A stretch of 64,000 nucleotides of DNA from Endozoicomonas sp. G2_2 (GTDB lineage: Bacteria > Pseudomonadota > Gammaproteobacteria > Nevskiales > Salinisphaeraceae). Under the pieces are notes generated by a model that worked only from the letters and a program-made list of their open reading frames with translations, made no database searches and was not told the origin of the DNA. The position numbers and the translations under genes were made by a program. Location: assembly GCF_017744135.1 (NCBI RefSeq), contig NZ_JAGHQU010000001.1:310001-374000 (forward strand). The letters run 5' to 3'. This document shows positions 35,032 to 50,063 of the stretch, piece by piece; position 1 is the first letter of the stretch, and every line of letters starts with the position of its first letter.

Positions 35032-35242
35032 GGCAGTTGCCGCGAGATCACCCTATGGTTGAATGTCCTTCTTATAAGCCGGTACGAGGAGCTCATTGCG
35101 CCTGTATCTCGATGGTGCTTGATTTATCTTCTGCGGCCTTGGAGTGAGTTGAGCAACGCCAGAGCCTTGGCCCGCCCTTTCTATGCTGTGGCACATCTCC
35201 CCGCTTGCGAGTGTGACTCGATGCCGATCTGCATATGCCGAT

Positions 35243-35273
35243 AAGCCGGCTTGCAACTATTGGACGACGTCGT
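35243..35273. promoter_or_regulatory. Twin palindromes upstream of the toxin-antitoxin genes
   Basis: AAGCCGGCTT (35243-35252) and ACGACGTCGT (35264-35273), both perfect 10-bp palindromes, lie 34-64 bp before the antitoxin ATG. They are suitable operators for ribbon-helix-helix antitoxin autoregulation. Confidence 0.45.
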
Positions 35274-35306
35274 ATGATTTACACGTCAATCAAGGGGAGT
35301 GGCCCG

Positions 35307-35540
35307 ATGAGTCGAATGATCAATTTCCGTGCCGACGACGAACTGGATGCGCGGTTGACTCGGCTCGCGCAACTGACCGGCCGGACGAAGACGTTCTACG
35401 TGCGCCAGGCCGTGGAAAGTCAGATTGAGGATCTGGAGGATATATATCTCGCCGATCAGGTTATGGATCGGGTGAATTCGGGGCGTGAGGCCGTTCACGA
35501 CCTTTCCGAAATAGAGCGCGATCTTGGCCTGGCGGATTGA
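35307..35540 (+). CDS. RelB-family (ribbon-helix-helix) antitoxin
   Basis: 77 residues. N-terminal ribbon-helix-helix pattern MINFRADDELDARLTRLAQL then TGRTKTFYVRQAVESQ, followed by an acidic C-terminal toxin-binding tail (IEDLEDIYLADQVM, LSEIERDLGLAD). AGGGGAG precedes the ATG. It overlaps the RelE-type toxin gene by 17 nt. It presumably neutralises the toxin and represses the operon. It lies between the CRISPR mini-array and cas3. Confidence 0.85.
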   Translation: MSRMINFRADDELDARLTRLAQLTGRTKTFYVRQAVESQIEDLEDIYLADQVMDRVNSGREAVHDLSEIERDLGLAD

Positions 35541-36176: not shown

Positions 36177-38879
36177 ATGTTTTCTGGGGTGGGTGCTAAA
36201 AAGCAGACGACTGCTTTCTCTGCCTTGAGCCCTGCGGCGCGAGCGATATGGTCGAAGAGCGAAGCGGGCGACGGCGGCGGCCATGGCCTGCTCGCCCATA
36301 TGTTGGATGTGGCCGCTGTCGCCGAAACGCTCCTCGAGCGGGAGCCGAAGGCGACGCTGGCTTGGGCGAGCGATCGATTAGGATTGCCGCACAGTGGCTG
36401 CCTGCGCTGGATCGCCGCGGTTGCGGGCCTGCACGACTTCGGCAAGGCGATTCCCGGTTTCAACTGCAAGTGGCCCGCGGGATATGCCAGAGCGCAGGTT
36501 GCCGGGCTTGTATTTTCGACCACCGCTTGTCGGGTTGATAACCACTCGCAGGCGACGGCGGGCTTGCTTGCCGAGGCGCTATGCGAAAAGACGCAGGCCC
36601 ATCGGGGTTGGGTCCGGGGTGCAGTGCAGGCGATCGCAGCACACCACGGACGCCATTTCTCTGCGGACGAGCGAGCGCGCGGTAAGCCGTTAGGCGAGCC
36701 GGAGGGCTGGAAACAGGCGCGTCGTGAAATTCTTGATTTTTACTGGCGAACGCTTGCACCAGAAGATGAGCCCACCGGTGAAACACTGGACATGGTCGGC
36801 TTGAACTGGCTGGCTGGGCTTACGAGCATCGCTGACTGGATTGCCTCGAATACCGATTGGTTCGCGCTCGGCGAGCGTTGCGACGATTTGGCCGAGTATT
36901 ACGAGCACGCGAAAGAACTCGCCGAGGAAGCGCTGAAGCAGGCCGGTTGGCGTGCCGCGCAACCGTTGCTGCGCGAAGAGGCCGATGCCGGCGATCTGCT
37001 ATCGCGCATGTTCAAGCAAACGACCGTTCCCCGGCCTTTGCAGGCGGTGGGCGATGCGTTGCTGCGATCCGCGAGTGGGCCGAGTCTGATGCTGGTCGAA
37101 GCGCCCATGGGCGAGGGCAAGACCGAACTGGCCTATCTGGCGCACCTGCGGTTACAGGCAAGCAACGGACATCGTGGGCTGTATGTCGCCTTGCCCACGC
37201 AGGCCACGGGCAACGCGCTTTTTGGCCGGACGCAAAAGTTTCTCGAAGCATTCGCTCGCGGAGAGACCGACATCCAACTCGTGCATGGCGGTGCGGCCAT
37301 GAACGAGCAGGTGCGCCACCTGCGCGGCATCGCGAACGACGCCGAAGAAAGTCTGTCGGCTTCGGCCTGGTTCTCCCAGCGCCGGCGGCCGTTGTTGTCG
37401 GCCTACGGCGTTGGAACGGTGGATCAGGCGCTGCTCGGTACGCTCAATGTAAAGCATCACTTTGTGCGCCTGTGGGGGCTGGCGAACCGCGTGGTCGTGC
37501 TCGACGAAGTTCACGCCTACGACACCTATACCGGCGTGCTTATCGAGGCGCTGGTCCGGTGGCTCAAGGCAATGGGAAGCTCGGTCATTCTCATGAGTGC
37601 GACGTTGCCGCAGAAAAAGCGCGATAGTTTAGTCCGCGCCTGGGGCGCCGAGCCGGCTTCACTGCCCAAGTTGGATTACCCGCGGTTGGCCGTAATCGAT
37701 GCGCACGGCGCGCGCGGCGAATCGGTCGCGGCGCGCCCGCTGGCGTCAATTGCCCTGCACGGCCTGGATGAGTCGTTGGAGACGATGCGGGATCGGGCCG
37801 TCGCGTTATTGCAAGACGGGGGGTGTGGCGCGGTGATCGTCAACACCGTCGATCGGGCACAAACACTGTTTGGATTGCTGGAAGCGGCGGTCGCCAAGCA
37901 GGGCATCGAAATTGAACAAGTGCTGTTTCACGCGCGTTTCCCAGCCGATGAACGGGCCCGGCGAGAAAAGAGAGTCCTGGGCCTTTTCGGGAACACGCGC
38001 GACGAAGACAACGAGTGGCAACGGCCGTCCAGAGGCTTGCTGATCGCGACCCAGGTGGCCGAGCAATCGCTGGATTTGGATTTCGACTTCATGATCAGCG
38101 ATCTCGCGCCGATCGATCTGCTGCTGCAGCGCGCTGGCCGCATGCATCGCCACGATCGCACACGGCCCGAGGCCCATACCGAAGCGCGGCTATGGGTCGC
38201 GGGGCTGCATCAGGACCGACTCCCGTCGCTCAAGGAGACGGCCTGGGAGTATGTCTACGACCCGTACATCCTTGGCCACACCTGGGCATGCCTGCGCGAT
38301 GAACCGCGACTGGAGCTGCCCGCAGATATCGACCGCCTGGTCCAGCACGTCTATAGCGATCCGGAACTGCCCACGGATATCCATGAAAAGATTCGCGCTT
38401 TCATCGACATCGAATCTCTTGGTGCGCATCTGGGAACAGAGCAGGGCAAGCATCAGCAAGCGATCGATATTTCGCTGGATACGGAAGCCGAGCCGGCACG
38501 CGCGTATCAGAATAAGCCGTTCGGGAGTGACGATGAAGAGGGCATTCGTAACGTGACCCGCCTGGGGCCGGATTCTGTAAGCCTCGTGCCGATCCCTGTC
38601 ATCGCCGATCAGTGGACGGTGGACGGAACGACCATCGATCCCGAACGCCCCGCGAGCGATTCGATAGCCCGCGACCTATACAAACGCCAACTACGCATAT
38701 CGCGCAAGGCAGTGGTCGTGCACTGCCAGCAGACTGAATTGCCCGCCGCGTTTGCAGAACACCCGTTGCTCAAACACTTATACCCCATGCCGTTGATCGA
38801 CGGCCGTTGCGCGCTGGGTGGTCAGGCCATGCGGTTGGATGAGGCGTTGGGGCTCGTCTACGAGGACCAGAAGAAATGA
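36177..38879 (+). CDS. cas3: Type I-E CRISPR helicase-nuclease Cas3
   Basis: 900 residues, close to E. coli Cas3. The N-terminal HD nuclease has histidines in GGHGLLAHMLDVAA and the HD pair in AGLHDFGKAIPGF (residues 87-88). A superfamily 2 helicase follows: Walker A in EAPMGEGKTELAY (near 310), box II in VVLDEVHAYDTY (near 443), motif III SATLP (near 472) and motif VI QRAGRMHRHDR. Cascade recruits it to unwind and degrade the target. A separate 218-bp gap and a hairpin divide it from the cascade operon. Confidence 0.96.
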   Translation: MFSGVGAKKQTTAFSALSPAARAIWSKSEAGDGGGHGLLAHMLDVAAVAETLLEREPKATLAWASDRLGLPHSGCLRWIAAVAGLHDFGKAIPGFNCKWPAGYARAQVAGLVFSTTACRVDNHSQATAGLLAEALCEKTQAHRGWVRGAVQAIAAHHGRHFSADERARGKPLGEPEGWKQARREILDFYWRTLAPEDEPTGETLDMVGLNWLAGLTSIADWIASNTDWFALGERCDDLAEYYEHAKELAEEALKQAGWRAAQPLLREEADAGDLLSRMFKQTTVPRPLQAVGDALLRSASGPSLMLVEAPMGEGKTELAYLAHLRLQASNGHRGLYVALPTQATGNALFGRTQKFLEAFARGETDIQLVHGGAAMNEQVRHLRGIANDAEESLSASAWFSQRRRPLLSAYGVGTVDQALLGTLNVKHHFVRLWGLANRVVVLDEVHAYDTYTGVLIEALVRWLKAMGSSVILMSATLPQKKRDSLVRAWGAEPASLPKLDYPRLAVIDAHGARGESVAARPLASIALHGLDESLETMRDRAVALLQDGGCGAVIVNTVDRAQTLFGLLEAAVAKQGIEIEQVLFHARFPADERARREKRVLGLFGNTRDEDNEWQRPSRGLLIATQVAEQSLDLDFDFMISDLAPIDLLLQRAGRMHRHDRTRPEAHTEARLWVAGLHQDRLPSLKETAWEYVYDPYILGHTWACLRDEPRLELPADIDRLVQHVYSDPELPTDIHEKIRAFIDIESLGAHLGTEQGKHQQAIDISLDTEAEPARAYQNKPFGSDDEEGIRNVTRLGPDSVSLVPIPVIADQWTVDGTTIDPERPASDSIARDLYKRQLRISRKAVVVHCQQTELPAAFAEHPLLKHLYPMPLIDGRCALGGQAMRLDEALGLVYEDQKK

Positions 38880-38969: not shown

Positions 38970-39097
38970 CTGCGTTTGCAGAGCAACACAATGATAAGTG
39001 CTTCGTATACATCGGAGGAGAGCTGCTCAAAAAGACTACGCTTGTAGTTTAGGAAGAACGAGTGCTAAATTCGATTTGGATCGGGGGAGAAAACGCG

Positions 39098-40729
39098 ATG
39101 AACAGCGTGACTCATACAAGCGCAAAAGATGCGCAAAGCGCGACACCGCCTGCCTACAGCCTGTTGCACGAACCTTGGCTATCCGTGCGCTTGGCGAGCG
39201 GTACGGTGACAACGCTCGGATTGCTGGAGAGCTTCGAGCGCAGCCGAGAAATCGTCGCGCTGGCTGAAACCGTGCCGCCCAATCTGGTCGCCCAATATCG
39301 GTTGCTGCTGGCGATTACGCACCGTGCGTTGAGCCAGAAGTTCGGGCGTTGGACGGAAGCCGATCGCGCAAGCTGGTATCGCACCGGATTTCCGCACAAT
39401 GCCGTCCGAGCCTATCTCGAGCAGTGGCAGGAACACTTCTGGCTGTTTCACCCCCAGCATCCGTTCATGCAGGTGGCCGTGCTCGAAAGCTCGGATAAGA
39501 CCCGAGACAAGCAGAAGCCGTGGACCCAGATTTCGCTGGGCAGCAGTAACGGCAATACACCCGTGGTGTTCGATCACGCCTTCGATACGCAGCCGGCGGA
39601 AATTACCCCGGCCGAGGCCGTCAATACGTTGCTGGGGTTTCTACAGTTCACGCCCGGCGGACTCGTTAAGGTGTTTCGCGGTTCGGACAAGGCCGGCGCG
39701 CTCGCCAATACGGCGGCCGCGATTCCGCTAGGCAACAATCTGGCCGAAACGCTGGCGCTTTGCCTGCATCCGCCGGAAACGCGATCGGACGGTTGGGACG
39801 ATCTGCCGAGCTGGGAGCGCGAGCCACTGACCGAAAGTCAGTTGTCCGGCGATCCCGTTTTTGCCAGTGGTCCGAATGATCGCTACACGCGCCAGAGCCG
39901 TGCGGTACTGCTTTTGCGCGAGAGCAACGGTAATGTGCGCTGGTTGCGTTTCGGCGCCGGCATGGCGCTGGCCGACAGCGAAGGACAACCCGACCCCATG
40001 GCCAGTTTTCGCGCCGGCCAGAAAGGGCCGGTACGTATCACCTTTAGCGAAGGCCGGGCGGCCTGGCGCGACCTGCCGGCCTTGGTGCCCGGCCCCACGG
40101 ACGAAAACGTAAACCGCCGGCCGGCCGCCGTGATCAGCTACGCGGCGAGCCTGCATGACGAACTTGGCGTGGGGTCGGGCGACTATCAGCCTTTGCTCGT
40201 TGCCGGTGTGGCTGGCGAGCCGGGAAGGCCGGCTAAGCTTGTTCGGTGGCGCATGGAGCAGATCGCTTTGCCCGCGAATCTGCTCGGCGATCCCGACCGT
40301 TCTCAGTTGCTCAAGGCCATGGTTGGCGATGCGGATACCGTATTCCGCGATCTGCGTTGGCTGGCGCAACGGATGCTGACCGAGAGCCTGCCCGATCCCG
40401 GTCATCCGGATACCCGCGCGAAAGCGCAGGGTTTGCTGGCAGCCGGACCGCTGTCCCCAACGTATTTCGCCGTCGCAGAACGTGCCTTGCCCGATCTCAT
40501 GTATCAGCTCGGCATGGGTGATTTTGATGCCGCGGAAGAACACTGGGCCGTGACATTGCGCGGGGCCGTGTTCGCGGCGTGGCGGAGCGTTGTCGCCGGT
40601 CTGGGCAGCACGCCCCGCGGCTTGCGCGCGGAGGCGCGTTATTTTCCGCGGCTGTTCGGGGTGCTCGATAAGCACGGACTCAAGACCGACGAAGCCGATA
40701 ACCCGCCGCAAACCGGAGTGATGTCATGA
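39098..40729 (+). CDS. cas8e: Cascade large subunit Cas8e (Cse1/CasA)
   Basis: 543 residues. N-terminal YSLLHEPWLSVRLASG, FWLFHPQHPFMQV, and a C-terminal helical bundle from about residue 390. It recognises the PAM and recruits Cas3. I see only one cysteine, so the zinc-binding cysteine set of the E. coli protein is absent. ATG at 39098 follows GGGGGAG; a GTG at 39062 with AGGAAG upstream is an alternative start. It overlaps cse2 by 4 nt. Confidence 0.95.
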   Translation: MNSVTHTSAKDAQSATPPAYSLLHEPWLSVRLASGTVTTLGLLESFERSREIVALAETVPPNLVAQYRLLLAITHRALSQKFGRWTEADRASWYRTGFPHNAVRAYLEQWQEHFWLFHPQHPFMQVAVLESSDKTRDKQKPWTQISLGSSNGNTPVVFDHAFDTQPAEITPAEAVNTLLGFLQFTPGGLVKVFRGSDKAGALANTAAAIPLGNNLAETLALCLHPPETRSDGWDDLPSWEREPLTESQLSGDPVFASGPNDRYTRQSRAVLLLRESNGNVRWLRFGAGMALADSEGQPDPMASFRAGQKGPVRITFSEGRAAWRDLPALVPGPTDENVNRRPAAVISYAASLHDELGVGSGDYQPLLVAGVAGEPGRPAKLVRWRMEQIALPANLLGDPDRSQLLKAMVGDADTVFRDLRWLAQRMLTESLPDPGHPDTRAKAQGLLAAGPLSPTYFAVAERALPDLMYQLGMGDFDAAEEHWAVTLRGAVFAAWRSVVAGLGSTPRGLRAEARYFPRLFGVLDKHGLKTDEADNPPQTGVMS

Positions 40730-41805
40730 GTTCTCACGCCCAGGCATTCATCGACTATTTGCAGCAGCTCCGAGAGGTCGATCGGGGCGCCATCGCGGCC
40801 CTACGTCATAGCGCGGCTTTCGAGCTGGGTCGCGATCCCAGTGTGTTTCCCTACGTTGAAGATTTTGCGGGTAAGAATCGCGCGTCCGACGATCCGTACC
40901 GGCTGGCGTTATACGAGGCGGCGGCGCTATATGCACGTCATCCGGCGCATCGACCGGTCACGTTTGCGAGCGCGTTCGGCGCGCTCCGGCGTGAACGCGA
41001 TAACCCGAGTATCGAACAGCGCTTCGTGACGTTGCTCGCCGCCGACAAGGAGCAGGTTTTTCCGCGGCTGCGTCAGGCCGTCGATCTTCTCGCCGCGGAC
41101 GATTACGGGTTGAATTATGTCCAGCTGATTAGCGATCTGGCGGATTGGCTCGCGTACGACGCGAACGCATTGCGGAAGCGTCGCTTATGCCAGACCTGGG
41201 GCCGCGATTTCTATCGCGCCGCATTGTCCGATCAAGCTCAGCATCGGCAGACCGGGCCCGAAGCATTTGTTGATTATCTCGAGGGGCTGGCAAGGGATAA
41301 ATCGAACGCGAGCGCGATGGCGCGCTTGCGCCGCAGCCTGACATACCCGCCCGGTGAAGACCCGCAGGTATTCGCACTAGTCGAGCCGTTTATCGATCCC
41401 GATTGGTCCCACGCCGATTCGCGGCGCCGCGCCCGATATCTTTTGGCCGGTCTGTTCGCCATGCACCCGGAGCATTATCCAGGTCGCCGCTTCGCCTCGG
41501 CCTTGAACCGGTTGGCGCGCCAACACACTGCGGACAGCGAGGGCATCGAACGCCGATTCATCGCGCTGCTCGGGGCCTCGCCCGATACGGTGGATGGCCA
41601 TCTGCGCCAGGCCATGTTTCGGCTGCAAGACACGCAGATTGGCTATGACGCAATTCAGCTACTCAAAGACTTATCGGTCTGGATACGACGCACACCGAAC
41701 ATCGCGCAACTCGACCGACTCCGGCAGCAGTGGGCGCGGGACTTCTACTGGATACCGCGCGCAGACGAACCGACATCCCAACCAAAACAAACCGAGGGGG
41801 CCTAG
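40726..41805 (+). CDS. cse2: Tandem-duplicated Cascade small subunit Cse2 (Cas11/CasB), fused dimer
   Basis: 359 residues, about twice the normal 160-200. Two complete Cse2 domains lie in one chain: residues 6-164 and 179-343, offset 173, joined by a 14-residue Gln-rich linker (SDQAQHRQTG). Shared landmarks, first/second copy: AFIDYL/AFVDYL, DPSVFPYVEDF/DPQVFALVEPF, HPAH/HPEH, FASAFGALRR/FASALNRLAR, IEQRFVTLL/IERRFIALL, LRQAVDLL/LRQAMFRL, QLISDLADW/QLLKDLSVW, WGRDFY/WARDFY. The copies are clearly diverged, so the event is old and both are under selection. In E. coli Cascade two separate Cse2 chains form the belly; here one chain could supply both. Spacing to neighbours is tight (4-nt overlap upstream, 2 nt downstream). 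Confidence 0.93.
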   Translation: MSSHAQAFIDYLQQLREVDRGAIAALRHSAAFELGRDPSVFPYVEDFAGKNRASDDPYRLALYEAAALYARHPAHRPVTFASAFGALRRERDNPSIEQRFVTLLAADKEQVFPRLRQAVDLLAADDYGLNYVQLISDLADWLAYDANALRKRRLCQTWGRDFYRAALSDQAQHRQTGPEAFVDYLEGLARDKSNASAMARLRRSLTYPPGEDPQVFALVEPFIDPDWSHADSRRRARYLLAGLFAMHPEHYPGRRFASALNRLARQHTADSEGIERRFIALLGASPDTVDGHLRQAMFRLQDTQIGYDAIQLLKDLSVWIRRTPNIAQLDRLRQQWARDFYWIPRADEPTSQPKQTEGA

Positions 41806-41807
41806 CC

Positions 41808-42953
41808 ATGCGTGCATTCATCGAATTCCACATCATCCAGAATTTCGCGCCGTCGAATCTCAATCGCGACGATACGGGTGCACCCAAGGACGCTATCTTT
41901 GGCGGTCATCGGCGTGCGCGCATCAGTAGTCAGTGCTTCAAGCGTGCTACCCGCCTCGCGACCGCCGAATACGATCTGATTGATGCCGCCCACCGCGGCA
42001 TACGAACCAAGCGACTCAAGGGGTTGTTGATCGAGCGCCTCGCCGAGCGCGATCCGGAGGAAGCTGCCGCAAAGATCGAAAGCGCGCTTGCGGCGGCCGG
42101 GCTGAGCCTGTCCAAGAAGGACGCCGAGAAGACCGAATATCTATTGTTTCTCGGCGAGAAAGAGGTCGCCGGTTTTGCCGCATTGATCGACGAGCATTGG
42201 GACGAGCTCGCCACGGTGGACGCCAGTCAGAACAAGAAGCAACGCAAGGCGGCGGCGCCGCCCGCAGTCGGCAAGAAGGCTAAGGCGCTGCTCGACGGCG
42301 GCAAGGCCGTCGATATCGCCCTGTTCGGACGGATGTTGGCGGATCTGCCGGCCGTCAACCAGGATGCGGCCTGTCAGGTTGCTCATGCGCTGAGCACGCA
42401 CCGGGTCGAGCGTGAATTCGACTACTACACCGCGGTCGACGATCGCGGTGGCGAAGACGATACCGGCGCCGACATGATCGGCCAGATCGAATTCAACTCG
42501 GCGACGCTCTATCGCTACGCCGTGCTCGATCTTGCCAAGCTGACCGCCAACTTGCAGGGCGATCGAGAATTGGCGCTCTCGGCGGTCGAGGCATTTACCA
42601 CGGCATTCGTGCGTGCCGTACCCAGCGGCAAACAGAACACGTTCGCGGCGCACAACGCGCCGGACTTCATCGGCGTCAGCTTACGGCATGTGGCGCCCAT
42701 GAACCTCGCCAATGCGTTCGAAAAGCCGGTTGCCAGCGATATCAAGCACTCGCTCACCGAGCAGTCGGTGCAGCGATTGAAAGCGGCGGATGAAAAGCTT
42801 TCAGCCGTCTATAGCGACGGTAACGACGAGTGGCTTTACCTCGATCTCACCGGCCAGTGGGCACAAGACAGCGATAAAGGTGAAGCCCAGCCCAACCTGG
42901 TCGCGCTCGCCCAACGTGTGCGTGGGTTGGCGGAGACGGCGCTGGAGGCTTAG
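41808..42953 (+). CDS. cas7e: Cascade backbone subunit Cas7e (Cse4/CasC)
   Basis: 381 residues. N-terminal FIEFHIIQNFAPSNLNRDDTGAPKDAIFGG and RISSQCFKRATR are the strongly conserved I-E Cas7 region; GQIEFNSATLYRYAVLD and SGKQNTFAAHNAPD follow. Six copies normally form the crRNA-binding backbone. A Lys/Ala-rich insertion (NKKQRKAAAPPAVGKKAKA, near 145-165) may be a flexible loop. GGGGG precedes the ATG. Confidence 0.96.
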   Translation: MRAFIEFHIIQNFAPSNLNRDDTGAPKDAIFGGHRRARISSQCFKRATRLATAEYDLIDAAHRGIRTKRLKGLLIERLAERDPEEAAAKIESALAAAGLSLSKKDAEKTEYLLFLGEKEVAGFAALIDEHWDELATVDASQNKKQRKAAAPPAVGKKAKALLDGGKAVDIALFGRMLADLPAVNQDAACQVAHALSTHRVEREFDYYTAVDDRGGEDDTGADMIGQIEFNSATLYRYAVLDLAKLTANLQGDRELALSAVEAFTTAFVRAVPSGKQNTFAAHNAPDFIGVSLRHVAPMNLANAFEKPVASDIKHSLTEQSVQRLKAADEKLSAVYSDGNDEWLYLDLTGQWAQDSDKGEAQPNLVALAQRVRGLAETALEA

Positions 42954-42955
42954 TC

Positions 42956-43642
42956 ATGGCGACGTTATTGCTGCGCCTAGAAGGACCAATGCAATCCTGG
43001 GGTACGACCAGCCGCTTCGACGAGCGCGACACGCAGCTCGAGCCGTCCAAATCGGGGGTGCTGGGCCTGGTGTGCGCTGCCCTCGGGCGCGATCGCGCGG
43101 AAGCCGTAGACGATCTCGCTGCGTTGCGCATGGCAGTTCGAGTCGATCGTGAAGGCGTGCCGATGCGCGATTATCACACGGCAACCGGCGTGGTCGTGGC
43201 CTCCTCCGGCAAGCCCGATATGGGTCGTACCGTGGTCAGCCAGCGTTACTACCTATCGGACGCGGTCTTTCTCGTGGCGCTGGAAGGCGATCGGCAATTG
43301 CTGACCGAAATCCATGCTGCGCTGCGTTCGCCGCACTGGCCTCTGTGTTTGGGGCGCAAGAGTTTCACACCGTCGATGCCCGTCTATCTGCCGGATGGGC
43401 TCGTAGACGAAGATCTGTGGTCCGCGCTCGAAAACCGTGCGCCGCTCGTATCGTCGAATCGTGCCGAGTCCGGCGCTCGGTCGGTCACGCGCCGTGTCGT
43501 CATTGAAGACCCGGAAGAGGGCGCGGTTCGCCTGGACCAGCCGGTCGCGCCGTTCGCCGCACGCCGTTTCGGGCCGCGTTTCATCAAGACGTTCGATCTG
43601 GCATGGGAGGTCAGCGATGTACCTGACACGACTCACGCTTGA
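42956..43642 (+). CDS. cas5e: Cascade subunit Cas5e (CasD)
   Basis: 228 residues. The RAMP fold begins LLLRLEGPMQSWGTTSRFDERDT, the I-E Cas5 signature, with LGRKSFTPSMPVYL in the middle. It caps the 5' handle of the crRNA and contacts Cas8e. Its 3' end overlaps cas6e by 26 nt. Confidence 0.95.
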   Translation: MATLLLRLEGPMQSWGTTSRFDERDTQLEPSKSGVLGLVCAALGRDRAEAVDDLAALRMAVRVDREGVPMRDYHTATGVVVASSGKPDMGRTVVSQRYYLSDAVFLVALEGDRQLLTEIHAALRSPHWPLCLGRKSFTPSMPVYLPDGLVDEDLWSALENRAPLVSSNRAESGARSVTRRVVIEDPEEGAVRLDQPVAPFAARRFGPRFIKTFDLAWEVSDVPDTTHA

Positions 43643-44219
43643 TCTGCGCAATGCGGCCGTACGGCGCGATCTGTCCGATGCCTATGATATGCACCGATCT
43701 CTGGTACGCGCGTTCGTGTCGGATGACGAGCAGTCACCGCCGCGTTTCCTTTGGCGAGTTGAGCCCGAATCCGTCTGGCGCGATCCGATAGTTCTCGTGC
43801 AATCTCGGGCTGAACCCGATTGGTCGGTATTTTCGTCATCCGGTTATTTCAAGAAACCGCCGGCAACCAAGACGATTGATCTCGCGGCGTTGGTCGAGAC
43901 CGGGCGACTTTACCGTTTTCGTTTGTTTGCGAACCCGACAGTGACGCAGCAAGGCAAGCGCTACGGCTTGTCGTCGGAAGACGAGCAGAATGCATGGCTC
44001 GAACGTAAAGGCGCCAAGTGTGGTTTTAGCATCGAGACTGCGTTGGTTACCTCCACCGATATCGTTCACTTGCGCGGAAACGACATCTGTCTGCAGCAAA
44101 CCTGTTTCGAAGGCGTATTGCGCGCGACCGACGAGTCGGCGCTGGAAGATGCTGTGGAAAGCGGCATTGGTCCCGGCAAGGCGTTCGGACTGGGGATGCT
44201 GAGTCTCTCGCCGCGTTGA
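43617..44219 (+). CDS. cas6e: crRNA endonuclease Cas6e (Cse3/CasE)
   Basis: 200 residues. The N-terminal RAMP domain contains SDAYDMHRSLVRAF with the probable catalytic His26, and the C-terminal glycine-rich loop is ESGIGPGKAFGLGMLSL. It cuts at the base of the repeat hairpin and remains bound. The main repeats here have a CCCCGC/GCGGGG stem that it should recognise, and so does R2 of the mini-array. Confidence 0.95.
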   Translation: MYLTRLTLDLRNAAVRRDLSDAYDMHRSLVRAFVSDDEQSPPRFLWRVEPESVWRDPIVLVQSRAEPDWSVFSSSGYFKKPPATKTIDLAALVETGRLYRFRLFANPTVTQQGKRYGLSSEDEQNAWLERKGAKCGFSIETALVTSTDIVHLRGNDICLQQTCFEGVLRATDESALEDAVESGIGPGKAFGLGMLSLSPR

Positions 44220-44247: not shown

Positions 44248-45469
<1,222 letters not shown>

Positions 45470-45573: not shown

Positions 45574-48500
45574 CCGTTCCCCGCGCACGCGGGGATGAAC
45601 CGCTGGCAAGACAAGGAGAGGGCGGCGGTCATTGCCGTTCCCCGCGCACGCGGGGATGAACCGCCCTGCCGGGCATCGTCGCCGACCTATACGGGCCGTT
45701 CCCCGCGCACGCGGGGATGAACCGCCCATGTCCGCCAGGTCGCGGATCATCATCATCCGTTCCCCGCGCACGCGGGGATGAACCGTGTCGCCTGTGCCCG
45801 TTAACTTTGATCTGAGCCCGTTCCCCGCGCACGCGGGGATGAACCGCCAGCATTGAGGCTCGCAAGCGGCGCTCGATCCCGTTCCCCGCGCACGCGGGGA
45901 TGAACCGGTTGGGCATAATCAAATGCCACAGAGTCAGGCCCGTTCCCCGCGCACGCGGGGATGAACCGGCGAAACGGTCACGTTCACCGGCAACCACGAG
46001 CCGTTCCCCGCGCACGCGGGGATGAACCGTACTAGAGTACTAATATGCGAGTAGGCACTGAACCGTTCCCCGCGCACGCGGGGATGAACCGCAAACGCGC
46101 TCGCTGAAAGCGGTGGAGACCAACCGTTCCCCGCGCACGCGGGGATGAACCGTGTTACGCCGGCGCCATGGTGTCGGGGATGATCCGTTCCCCGCGCACG
46201 CGGGGATGAACCGACAGGTTGAATGGATTGCCGGGCCATGGAACTCCGTTCCCCGCGCACGCGGGGATGAACCGGCTTCGGCCAGCGGGATCAACAGATC
46301 GGCCGGCCGTTCCCCGCGCACGCGGGGATGAACCGACCTCCGGGTAACGCCGCGCGATCTCGCGTAACCGTTCCCCGCGCACGCGGGGATGAACCGGCGG
46401 CGGGGGCGGTGGCCGCGTTGCCCAGGAACCGTTCCCCGCGCACGCGGGGATGAACCGCCGGCGGTGACGCATGAACGCCCACGTCATCACCGTTCCCCGC
46501 GCACGCGGGGATGAACCGTATTTTAGTACTTGGCAAAGCGGCCAATCCATCCGTTCCCCGCGCACGCGGGGATGAACCGTCCCGCACGGCGTCGGCCTTG
46601 TCGGCGTCGCTCCGTTCCCCGCGCACGCGGGGATGAACCGGACCGCGACACCGGCCAGAAGAAAGAGGCTGTCCGTTCCCCGCGCACGCGGGGATGAACC
46701 GTGCGTTAAGCGCAACGAAGACTGGCCGCCCAGCCGTTCCCCGCGCACGCGGGGATGAACCGGTCAATCCGGCGCACGTCACGCGCAACCAGCCCCGTTC
46801 CCCGCGCACGCGGGGATGAACCGACGGCGCGATCGTGCGCACGGTGAGCGACCTACCGTTCCCCGCGCACGCGGGGATGAACCGCCTGAAACCGTTCCCA
46901 GCTCCCAAGACCGTGGCCGTTCCCCGCGCACGCGGGGATGAACCGATATGAACCTTCGCAACCGCATCGCCGCCATGCCGTTCCCCGCGCACGCGGGGAT
47001 GAACCGATATTCGTAGGTAAGCGGGTGCTCATGGCCTGCCGTTCCCCGCGCACGCGGGGATGAACCGGCGCCGTTCCGTTAAAGGTGGAGGCGACCGAGC
47101 CGTTCCCCGCGCACGCGGGGATGAACCAGCAAGACCAATGCGCCGCGCTGCTCGCAAACCCCGTTCCCCGCGCACGCGGGGATGAACCGGCTGAGACGGT
47201 GCCGCAATCCATCCTTGACGACCGTTCCCCGCGCACGCGGGGATGAACCAGGGCGTCACTTTGTAGTTCGAATGGTGGAACCACCGTTCCCCGCGCACGC
47301 GGGGATGAACCGCGGGCCAAACTCGGGGAATACCCGCGTAATTTCCGTTCCCCGCGCACGCGGGGATGAACCGTCGATCACACCAAGCTTGCGATCGCGA
47401 TCGCGGCCGTTCCCCGCGCACGCGGGGATGAACCGGCTTTACAGAACGTCTCCGGCTCCGGCTCGTGCCGTTCCCCGCGCACGCGGGGATGAACCGGTAG
47501 GCTTACGATTTAGCCTGATTTTTGTTTACCGTTCCCCGCGCACGCGGGGATGAACCGAGTCGGGAATACGGGTTTTTCGTTCGAGTTTTCCGTTCCCCGC
47601 GCACGCGGGGATGAACCCTGTCGCCAGTGATCGAAGTTCTCGAGCTCCGGCCCGTTCCCCGCGCACGCGGGGATGAACCGTACGCGACGCCAACAACACG
47701 GAGGGCGATCTCCCGTTCCCCGCGCACGCGGGGATGAACCGCGCCACCCATTGCGCGTCGATGACGCGACCTCCCCGTTCCCCGCGCACGCGGGGATGAA
47801 CCGCTGGACGAGATCTATCAGAAATACGAAAACGCCCGTTCCCCGCGCACGCGGGGATGAACCGTACGGCGGACTGGTGACACAGGTCTGCACGCACCGT
47901 TCCCCGCGCACGCGGGGATGAACCGCAGGAGCGTGGGCTGTGAAAGCGTACATGGGACCGTTCCCCGCGCACGCGGGGATGAACCGGCGCGCGAGCACGA
48001 GCGAGCCCGTGATTAGGTCCGTTCCCCGCGCACGCGGGGATGAACCGGCCATTGTCGCCATAGCTGCCGTAAGTACCGGCCGTTCCCCGCGCACGCGGGG
48101 ATGAACCGGGTGCCGGCAATATCTTTCCCCGCTTCTCTGCCCGTTCCCCGCGCACGCGGGGATGAACCGAGCGCGCTAGAAGCCGAAGCGCTTGGTATAT
48201 GCCCGTTCCCCGCGCACGCGGGGATGAACCGCCATTGGAGCATTGCACTTTCGCCTGGTCTACCCGTTCCCCGCGCACGCGGGGATGAACCGTTGGAACT
48301 GCAGCGTGGTGCGGTTGTGCTTGGCCGTTCCCCGCGCACGCGGGGATGAACCGCCTTCGCCGATGAATGCGAGAACTACGCCGATCCGTTCCCCGCGCAC
48401 GCGGGGATGAACCGACAACGACCGCGTGCACTTCATGACGCTGGGCCCGTTCCCCGCGCACGCGGGGATGAACCGATCACCGGCTACAACAGCCCATTCG

Positions 48501-50063
48501 AGGTCACCCGTTCCCCGCGCACGCGGGGATGAACCGTCTTGGGCACGGTAAATGCTCCGGTTTGGGGTCCGTTCCCCGCGCACGCGGGGATGAACCGATG
48601 CACGGCGGCGGTCACGATGTCCTGGTGATCCGTTCCCCGCGCACGCGGGGATGAACCGCTGTATTACAGCTGCGGCTCGTGCGGGATGATCCGTTCCCCG
48701 CGCACGCGGGGATGAACCGATGAGCGGCGGAGAGGAGACGCCAGCTCGGGTCCGTTCCCCGCGCACGCGGGGATGAACCGGTGGTTCGTCCTTATCTACA
48801 CTGAAGGTGTAGCCGTTCCCCGCGCACGCGGGGATGAACCGTACGACCCGCAGAAGTCGATCCGGGTCTCCGACCGTTCCCCGCGCACGCGGGGATGAAC
48901 CGGACGCCAACGAAACGCTGGTCAAATACGGTAACCGTTCCCCGCGCACGCGGGGATGAACCGTTATCCGTATCCCTGCCGAGATCGGCGAAGGCCCGTT
49001 CCCCGCGCACGCGGGGATGAACCGACCTTTAGCGACAACGAGCAGATCAAATACGCCCGTTCCCCGCGCACGCGGGGATGAACCGCTACCGCTGTATCGC
49101 AGCCACAAGCTGGTTCGCCGTTCCCCGCGCACGCGGGGATGAACCGTAATGGTCACGGAATTCAGCTATGAACGCGACCCGTTCCCCGCGCACGCGGGGA
49201 TGAACCGCTGATGCAGCTGCGTGATGATCGGCGGGCACTCCGTTCCCCGCGCACGCGGGGATGAACCGACATGGAAGGCCAGCTGGCCACGGCGGTGCCG
49301 CCGTTCCCCGCGCACGCGGGGATGAACCGTGATCATCCGAACGGTCGAAGGGGCCGTGATGCCGTTCCCCGCGCACGCGGGGATGAACCGCCACAAATCG
49401 CCGGGATAGATCGGGTAGTCATCCGTTCCCCGCGCACGCGGGGATGAACCGATCAAACTGGCCGAGCGACGCGGCTTCGACGTCCGTTCCCCGCGCACGC
49501 GGGGATGAACCGGCCGAAGGCATGGAAGCGATCGACATGCGCGGCCGTTCCCCGCGCACGCGGGGATGAACCGGGGCTTGATGTAGTGCTCCTTGGCGTA
49601 GGCGCCCGTTCCCCGCGCACGCGGGGATGAACCGTTGCAGCCGGAGCCGGACAGCACCGGCTTGGTCCGTTCCCCGCGCACGCGGGGATGAACCGGACGT
49701 ATTTCGTCCTTTCGCAACGCTTACAGAACCGTTCCCCGCGCACGCGGGGATGAACCGTGGGCGACATCGGCCCCGAAAAGCCGGAAGGCCCGTTCCCCGC
49801 GCACGCGGGGATGAACCGCCCAGTTGGTCGCGGTAATGCGGCCAGAATCGCCCGTTCCCCGCGCACGCGGGGATGAACCGACCTGGCCGCCGAATGCCAC
49901 TGGACCGCGCACCCGTTCCCCGCGCACGCGGGGATGAACCACACCCTGGGCTTTTCGACCGATGGCGCATTGCCCGTTCCCCGCGCACGCGGGGATGAAC
50001 CGGACTAGCCAGGTTTTCGACGTTGCGCCGGTGTCCGTTACCCGCACCTGCGGAGACTGATTG
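45574..50063 (+). CRISPR. Type I-E CRISPR array, 73 spacers
   Basis: 29-nt repeats starting CCGTTCCCCGCG and ending GGGGATGAACCG, with stem CCCCGC/GCGGGG. Stepping through the starts gives 73 standard repeats from 45574 to 49974 plus a degenerate terminal one at 50035, so 73 spacers. 65 spacers are 32 nt and eight are 33 nt (those ending before repeats at 46063, 47284, 47407, 47652, 47775, 48203, 49729 and 49852). Four repeats differ only at the last base: 47100, 47222 and 49913 end in A, 47590 ends in C. The leader end is at cas2. I noticed no duplicated spacer by eye. Confidence 0.98.
50035..50063 (+). repeat. Degenerate terminal repeat of the array
   Basis: About 18 of 29 positions match the consensus; it starts CCGTTACCCG and loses the 3' ATGAACC part. 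This marks the leader-distal, oldest end of the array. Confidence 0.85.

Follow-up and report, generated by a model that had tools for sequence, protein, structure and literature searches.

A type I-E CRISPR-Cas operon encoding a tandem Cse2, a recurrent variant of a known Cascade component

Organization of the Locus

The window (the whole stretch of DNA that was analyzed, 64,000 nucleotides) carries a complete type I-E operon in the order cas3-cse1-cse2-cas7e-cas5e-cas6e-cas1e-cas2e, followed by a CRISPR array. The cse2 gene lies between cse1 and cas7e, as in ordinary type I-E loci, and codes for two Cse2 domains in a single frame. The features, with the basis of each assignment, are as follows.

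36177 to 38879, + strand: cas3 (HD nuclease-helicase), by HMM
39098 to 40729, + strand: cse1/casA (cas8e), by HMM; the listed frame begins at the GTG at 39062
40726 to 41805, + strand: tandem cse2 (cas11e), 359 residues, ATG to TAG (41803 to 41805)
40738 to 41226, + strand: N-terminal Cse2 half, about residues 5 to 167, by HMM; His28 is the R27-equivalent and Arg99 the R101-equivalent
41224 to 41259, + strand: linker, about residues 167 to 178, LSDQAQHRQTGP, read directly from the translation
41254 to 41760, + strand: C-terminal Cse2 half, about residues 177 to 345, by HMM and predicted fold; Arg203 is the R27-equivalent and Arg277 the R101-equivalent
41808 to 42953, + strand: cas7e (cse4/casC), by HMM; the Asp22-equivalent is kept and the Trp199-equivalent is Tyr
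42956 to 43642, + strand: cas5e (casD), by HMM
43617 to 44219, + strand: cas6e (cse3/casE), by HMM; start picked by reading frame (MYLTRL)
44248 to 45168, + strand: cas1e, by HMM
45170 to 45469, + strand: cas2e, by HMM; start approximate
45574 to 50002, + strand: CRISPR array of 73 repeats of 29 nt and 72 spacers, by repeat count

The stop codon of cse1 and the ATG of the tandem cse2 overlap (ATGA), and two bases separate the tandem's stop from the ATG of cas7e. Between them the frame at 40726 to 41805 (+) is open from ATG to TAG, with neither stop nor frameshift, just as the initial annotation had read it. Spacers in the array measure 32 nt in 64 of 72 cases and 33 nt in 8 of 72. Upstream of cas3, a short frame at 35235 to 35540 resembles, as judged by eye, a ribbon-helix-helix antitoxin.

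Domain Identity and Predicted Fold

Cse2/CasB (Cas11e) of type I-E Cascade is represented by the families PF09485 and TIGR02548 and by the proteins of E. coli, Thermus (2zca/4h7a), and Thermobifida (4h79); the E. coli protein is a single domain of 160 residues, present twice per complex (PMC5965380), whereas the window chain holds two domains, each of which matches the family by HMM. PF09485 matches the whole tandem protein in two stretches with 178.8 bits. A separate HMM search of the two halves had been proposed as a check on the claim of two full domains, and both halves, rather than just one, score as Cse2: the N and C halves reach 98.9 and 91.8 bits against PF09485 (cut-off 24.6) and 79.1 and 82.0 bits against TIGR02548 (cut-off 28.5), which is so far over the cut-offs that chance is excluded. 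A family search at E values up to 0.01 returned PF09485 alone for the tandem chain, and thus no nuclease domain.

An AlphaFold2 model of the C half, built from an alignment of 14 halves, has a pLDDT of 95, and its best PDB match is Thermus Cse2 (2zca; TM 0.79 by query length). Seven PDB matches were obtained at E ≤ 0.001, comprising Cse2/CasB of Thermus, M. ruber, and Thermobifida together with one Cascade chain; by this prediction, the C half has the Cse2 helical-bundle fold. The model of the whole chain, made from nine sequences, was unusable (pLDDT 43, pTM 0.23).

The halves have diverged, as first remarked, to 40% identity over 164 aligned residues. Residues paired between them (R27/R202, W141/W319, and F162/F340) are offset by about 175 to 178 positions, which replaces the constant offset of about 173 given originally. 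The linker, first described as short and Gln-rich, is indeed short (about residues 167 to 178), and its glutamine content comes to 3 in 12 residues.

Functional Residues in the Two Halves

Two arginines of E. coli Cse2, R27 and R101, are paired with D22 of Cas7 and touch displaced target bases (PMC5965380). The R101-equivalent is Arg in all 38 tandem halves considered here, those of this genus and of Streptomyces (see below) taken together. The R27-equivalent, for which 65 of the 69 single Cse2s of the domain tree have Arg or Lys, is His in 3/3 N halves and Arg in 3/3 C halves of this genus, and Glu or Asp in 16/16 N halves and Ser or Ala in 16/16 C halves of Streptomyces. The assertion that both halves keep their key landmarks therefore holds for the most part, the exception being the His of the N half, and the suggested asymmetry of the halves is borne out at the sequence level by this same position (His in N, Arg in C). 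As His is also found there in the single Cse2 of Ideonella, it need not come from the fusion.

Across 31 columns conserved in single Cse2s, the N and C halves of the window keep 23 and 24, respectively, compared with a median of 27 and a minimum of 18 for the singles; Streptomyces N halves keep 15 to 18, Streptomyces C halves 20 to 22, and six actinobacterial singles 18 to 22. Equivalents of E. coli R53, R110, K142, and R143 are not conserved among single Cse2s. In the window Cas7, D22 is kept and W199 is replaced by Tyr, which is still aromatic.

Distribution of Tandem Cse2

PF09485 was searched in overlapping survey sets (85 genomes of the genus, family, and order; a class sample of 369; a phylum sample of 299; and 385 genomes of the class of G599), and matches at E ≤ 0.001 were obtained in 71 different genomes. 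Two weak matches (G147, at 24.7 bits, and G405, below the cut-off) were not confirmed as Cse2 by the HMM built here. By the same HMM, two Cse2 domains in one frame occur in 3 of the remaining 69 genomes, all of this genus, and the other 66 have single-domain frames only. Long frames at other Cse2 loci (e.g., L024, L030, and L057), including one of 699 residues (L096), were considered as possible tandems and contain one Cse2 domain each. Relatives of the tandem were absent from the phage records and viral contigs searched, and a search of genome contigs with the window protein found none.

Within the genus, 5 of 14 genomes have Cse2 by PF09485, and these same five have one Cas7e each. The tandem is present in three (G000, G008, and G012), that is, in 3/14 genomes and in 3/5 of those with any Cse2, and the window protein is 58–59% identical to the other two. 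The remaining two Cse2-bearing genomes (G007 and G015) encode a single-domain Cse2, showing that these hosts do not depend on the tandem; their effector module is quite different from that of the window. The other Cse2-bearing genome of the family (G001) likewise has a single-domain Cse2. No PF09485 match lies outside the fused frame in the three tandem genomes. In the genome of the window, only the tandem's two domains are found by PF09485, and Cas7e is found once, which upholds the suggested loss of free Cse2. A rough dN/dS for the three pairs of genus tandems comes to 0.20, 0.18, and 0.11 in the N half; in the C half it is 0.10 and 0.17 for the first and third pairs and undefined for the second. 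With dS saturated, these values indicate that both halves are probably under purifying selection and nothing finer.

Outside the genus, a tblastn search of plasmid records with the window protein matched eight Streptomyces records across both halves in one piece. The Streptomyces casB genes fetched (seven of those eight plus one later find) encode 390 to 404 residues and are annotated only as type I-E Cse2/CasB, with the tandem unremarked. A search with one Streptomyces tandem matched 62 plasmid records; among the 40 listed, nine have a single unbroken match to 94% or more of the query, and in 31 one stretch of about 500 bases was matched twice, as expected of a single domain. All six genes fetched from those 31 records encode a single-domain Cse2. 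A genome scan added eight further Streptomyces tandems, and two Cse2 domains were confirmed in 16/16 Streptomyces candidates (8 on plasmids, 8 on genome contigs), these loci having been chosen as tandem candidates rather than sampled at random.

The Streptomyces tandems (e.g., WP_329453223.1 and WP_307949690.1) resemble that of the window in having two Cse2 domains in one frame and, at the annotated plasmid loci fetched, in lying between casA and cas7e; arrays with a 61-nt period stand beside 4 of 7 loci checked. They differ in a longer inter-domain stretch and in the absence of Arg from the R27 position of both halves. The arrangement is thus no one-off, being present in three species of the genus and at all 16 chosen Streptomyces loci: tandem Cse2 is a real, recurrent variant of a known Cascade component.

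Origins of the Fusion

The domain tree comprised 107 domains, from 19 tandem genes and 69 single Cse2s (59 from genomes and 10 from plasmids). The N halves of the genus form one group (100/98), as do its C halves (96/99), the Streptomyces N halves (100/99), and the Streptomyces C halves (98/98), and the Streptomyces domains fall with the six actinobacterial singles in a separate group (100/98). A common origin of all tandems, imposed as a single clade of all tandem domains, is rejected by the AU test (p = 8.75e-41), so the Cse2 fusion, by this tree, arose at least twice, separately in the genus and in Streptomyces.

Within each lineage, grouping of the N halves with the C halves was not rejected: the constraint costs 10 log units for the genus (AU p = 0.10), and the corresponding test for Streptomyces gives AU p = 0.23. 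The single Cse2 of Ideonella clusters with the genus N halves (90/88), so the genus tandem may also have come from the joining of two distinct genes for Cse2. This Ideonella dechloratans plasmid system (WP_151123217.1) is the closest single-Cse2 system among those compared, with cas7e 69%, cas5e 71%, and cas3 57% identical; its Cse2 shares the His at the R27 position with the window N half and, unlike the window tandem, is a single domain of 191 residues.

Relation to Described Systems

A related arrangement is the I-E3 variant, in which a PD-(D/E)xK nuclease is fused to Cas11 (PMC12669027); it is likewise a Cas11 fusion in type I-E, but the partner is a nuclease and not a second Cas11. This is the sole Cas11 fusion mentioned in the portions consulted of that 2025 CRISPR classification (PMC12669027). 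Tandem Cse2 goes unmentioned in the corresponding portions of papers on actinomycete CRISPR systems (PMC4762764, PMC12231136) and of the 2011 survey of Cas families (PMC3150331), and no description of a tandem Cse2 was found in the open-licence literature searched, whether by phrase in main texts or, among the matches listed, by title or opening of the abstract. Elsewhere, the term "Cas11 fusion" occurs for a Cas7-Cas11 construct and in papers about type III complexes. The initial annotation's view of an undescribed I-E variant thus stands insofar as no description was found in that literature, and is qualified by the Streptomyces genes, which are already public as "Cse2/CasB" without remark.

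Proposed Role in Cascade and Alternative Explanations

In type I-E Cascade, two Cse2 subunits lie head to tail along six Cas7; Cse2.1 contacts Cas6e, and Cse2.2 reaches Cse1 through its C-terminal domain (PMC5965380). The gene described here probably encodes a covalent Cse2 dimer, a single chain of which fills both Cse2 positions of a normal-sized Cascade. The complex would consist of one Cse1, two Cse2 domains, six Cas7, one Cas5, and one Cas6e. Since E. coli Cascade with this spacer length (32–33 nt) has six Cas7 and two Cse2 (PMC5965380), the spacers of the window point to an unchanged number of subunit positions, and one tandem chain would supply the right number of domains per complex. 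Because the head-to-tail order would bring the C-terminus of Cse2.1 close to the N-terminus of Cse2.2, the N half most likely takes the position of Cse2.1, next to Cas6e, and the C half that of Cse2.2, next to Cse1, with the linker of about 12 residues joining them. The salt bridge between E. coli Cse1 R483 and Cse2 E150 is not conserved in the window proteins and is therefore unusable for fixing this order. The two domains would act as in ordinary type I-E systems, lining the belly, holding the displaced strands, and stabilizing the R-loop ahead of Cas3 recruitment. The chain would presumably stay intact, with both domains in one complex, and assembly of Cascade may be altered, as the initial annotation had predicted. 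A single chain would also supply both positions 1:1 and leave the halves free to diverge by position, although any advantage of the fused pair is one that we infer.

Several other explanations must be weighed against this single-chain dimer. There is next to no chance that the tandem frame is an assembly or sequencing artefact in the form of a duplicated repeat, given that its halves are just 40% identical, that the identical type of fusion occurs in three separate assemblies, and that each kind of half clusters with its own kind in the domain tree. Nothing was found in favor of such an artefact; the initial annotation had already dismissed an assembly fault, and the same fused frame in two further genomes of the genus settles that point. 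It is unlikely, too, that the chain is split, or that the C half is also made from an internal start, leaving free Cse2 in Cascade. Types I-B, I-C, and I-D are described as having internal translation or a "hidden" Cas11 (PMC12235044), and candidate start codons do lie near the junction: the window has a TTG at codon 167, L002 has a GTG, and L002 and L004 share an ATG, absent from the window, within the final helix of the N half. None near the junction, however, is common to all three species, and L004 has none between its HMM domains, for which reason separate production of the C half appears unlikely; moreover, no clear ribosome binding site is seen by eye, and an internal start would yield a free C half, yet no free N half.

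Less credible still is a chain in which the task of the small subunit falls to one half alone, the other being a passenger in decay or just a tether. The His of the N half, where nearly all singles have Arg or Lys, and the lower tally of conserved sites in Streptomyces N halves than in C halves and actinobacterial singles would fit such decay. The window halves, by contrast, keep similar tallies, and the N half has a rough dN/dS estimate of 0.11 to 0.20, pointing to purifying selection; its R101-equivalent and the two Trp landmarks are retained as well.

A further, tentative extension of the single-chain dimer, which we hold to be possible but doubtful, is that covalent dimerization is a recurrent step letting the two Cse2 positions specialize; in this genus, the R27-type clamp, which acts on Cas7 and on the target strand, would be missing from the Cas6e-proximal half and kept in the Cse1-proximal half. 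If true, the order of the two small-subunit domains in Cascade would be fixed and their functions would differ, and R-loop locking would be altered or the complex protected from inhibitors that capture free Cas11. The lack of the R27-type Arg from the N half could also reflect weaker function rather than specialization.

Implications

The fused pair would fix both the supply and the order of the Cse2 domains, and the fact that it arose again, independently, in Streptomyces hints at selection for keeping the pair together. In ordinary Cascade, a single gene supplies both Cse2 copies, and any mutation affects the two positions together; in a natural tandem, each position could be mutated alone, so that whether they have distinct roles in R-loop locking becomes directly testable. 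Deletion of Cas11 in E. coli lowered plasmid interference and did not abolish it, and an older study found Cas11 essential against phage lambda (both in PMC12235044). As Cas11 by itself is reported to be unstable (PMC12883894), the tandem may aid the building of simpler Cascade tools. The anti-CRISPR AcrIE8.1 binds Cas11 (PMC12883894), and it may be speculated that the fusion shields against inhibitors of this kind.

Additional Observations

The adaptation genes of the window (44248 to 45469) are close to those of two loci of the same genus with a different, single-Cse2 effector module: Cas1e is 84% and 92% identical (L088 and L089, respectively) and 70% identical to that of another genus of the family (L090). 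Against these three loci, cas3 of the window effector is 31–34% identical, cas7e is 35% identical, and cse1 has no match; from these comparisons, it looks as if the effector module was exchanged beside a retained cas1-cas2. In the other two tandem genomes (L086 and L087), arrays whose repeats are related and whose spacers mostly measure 32 nt flank the operon on both sides, and L087 has irregular spacings as well. Lastly, one class member (G447) carries three single-domain Cse2 genes on three different contigs (L033, L108, and L109), which suggests that it holds several type I-E systems or that its assembly is mixed.
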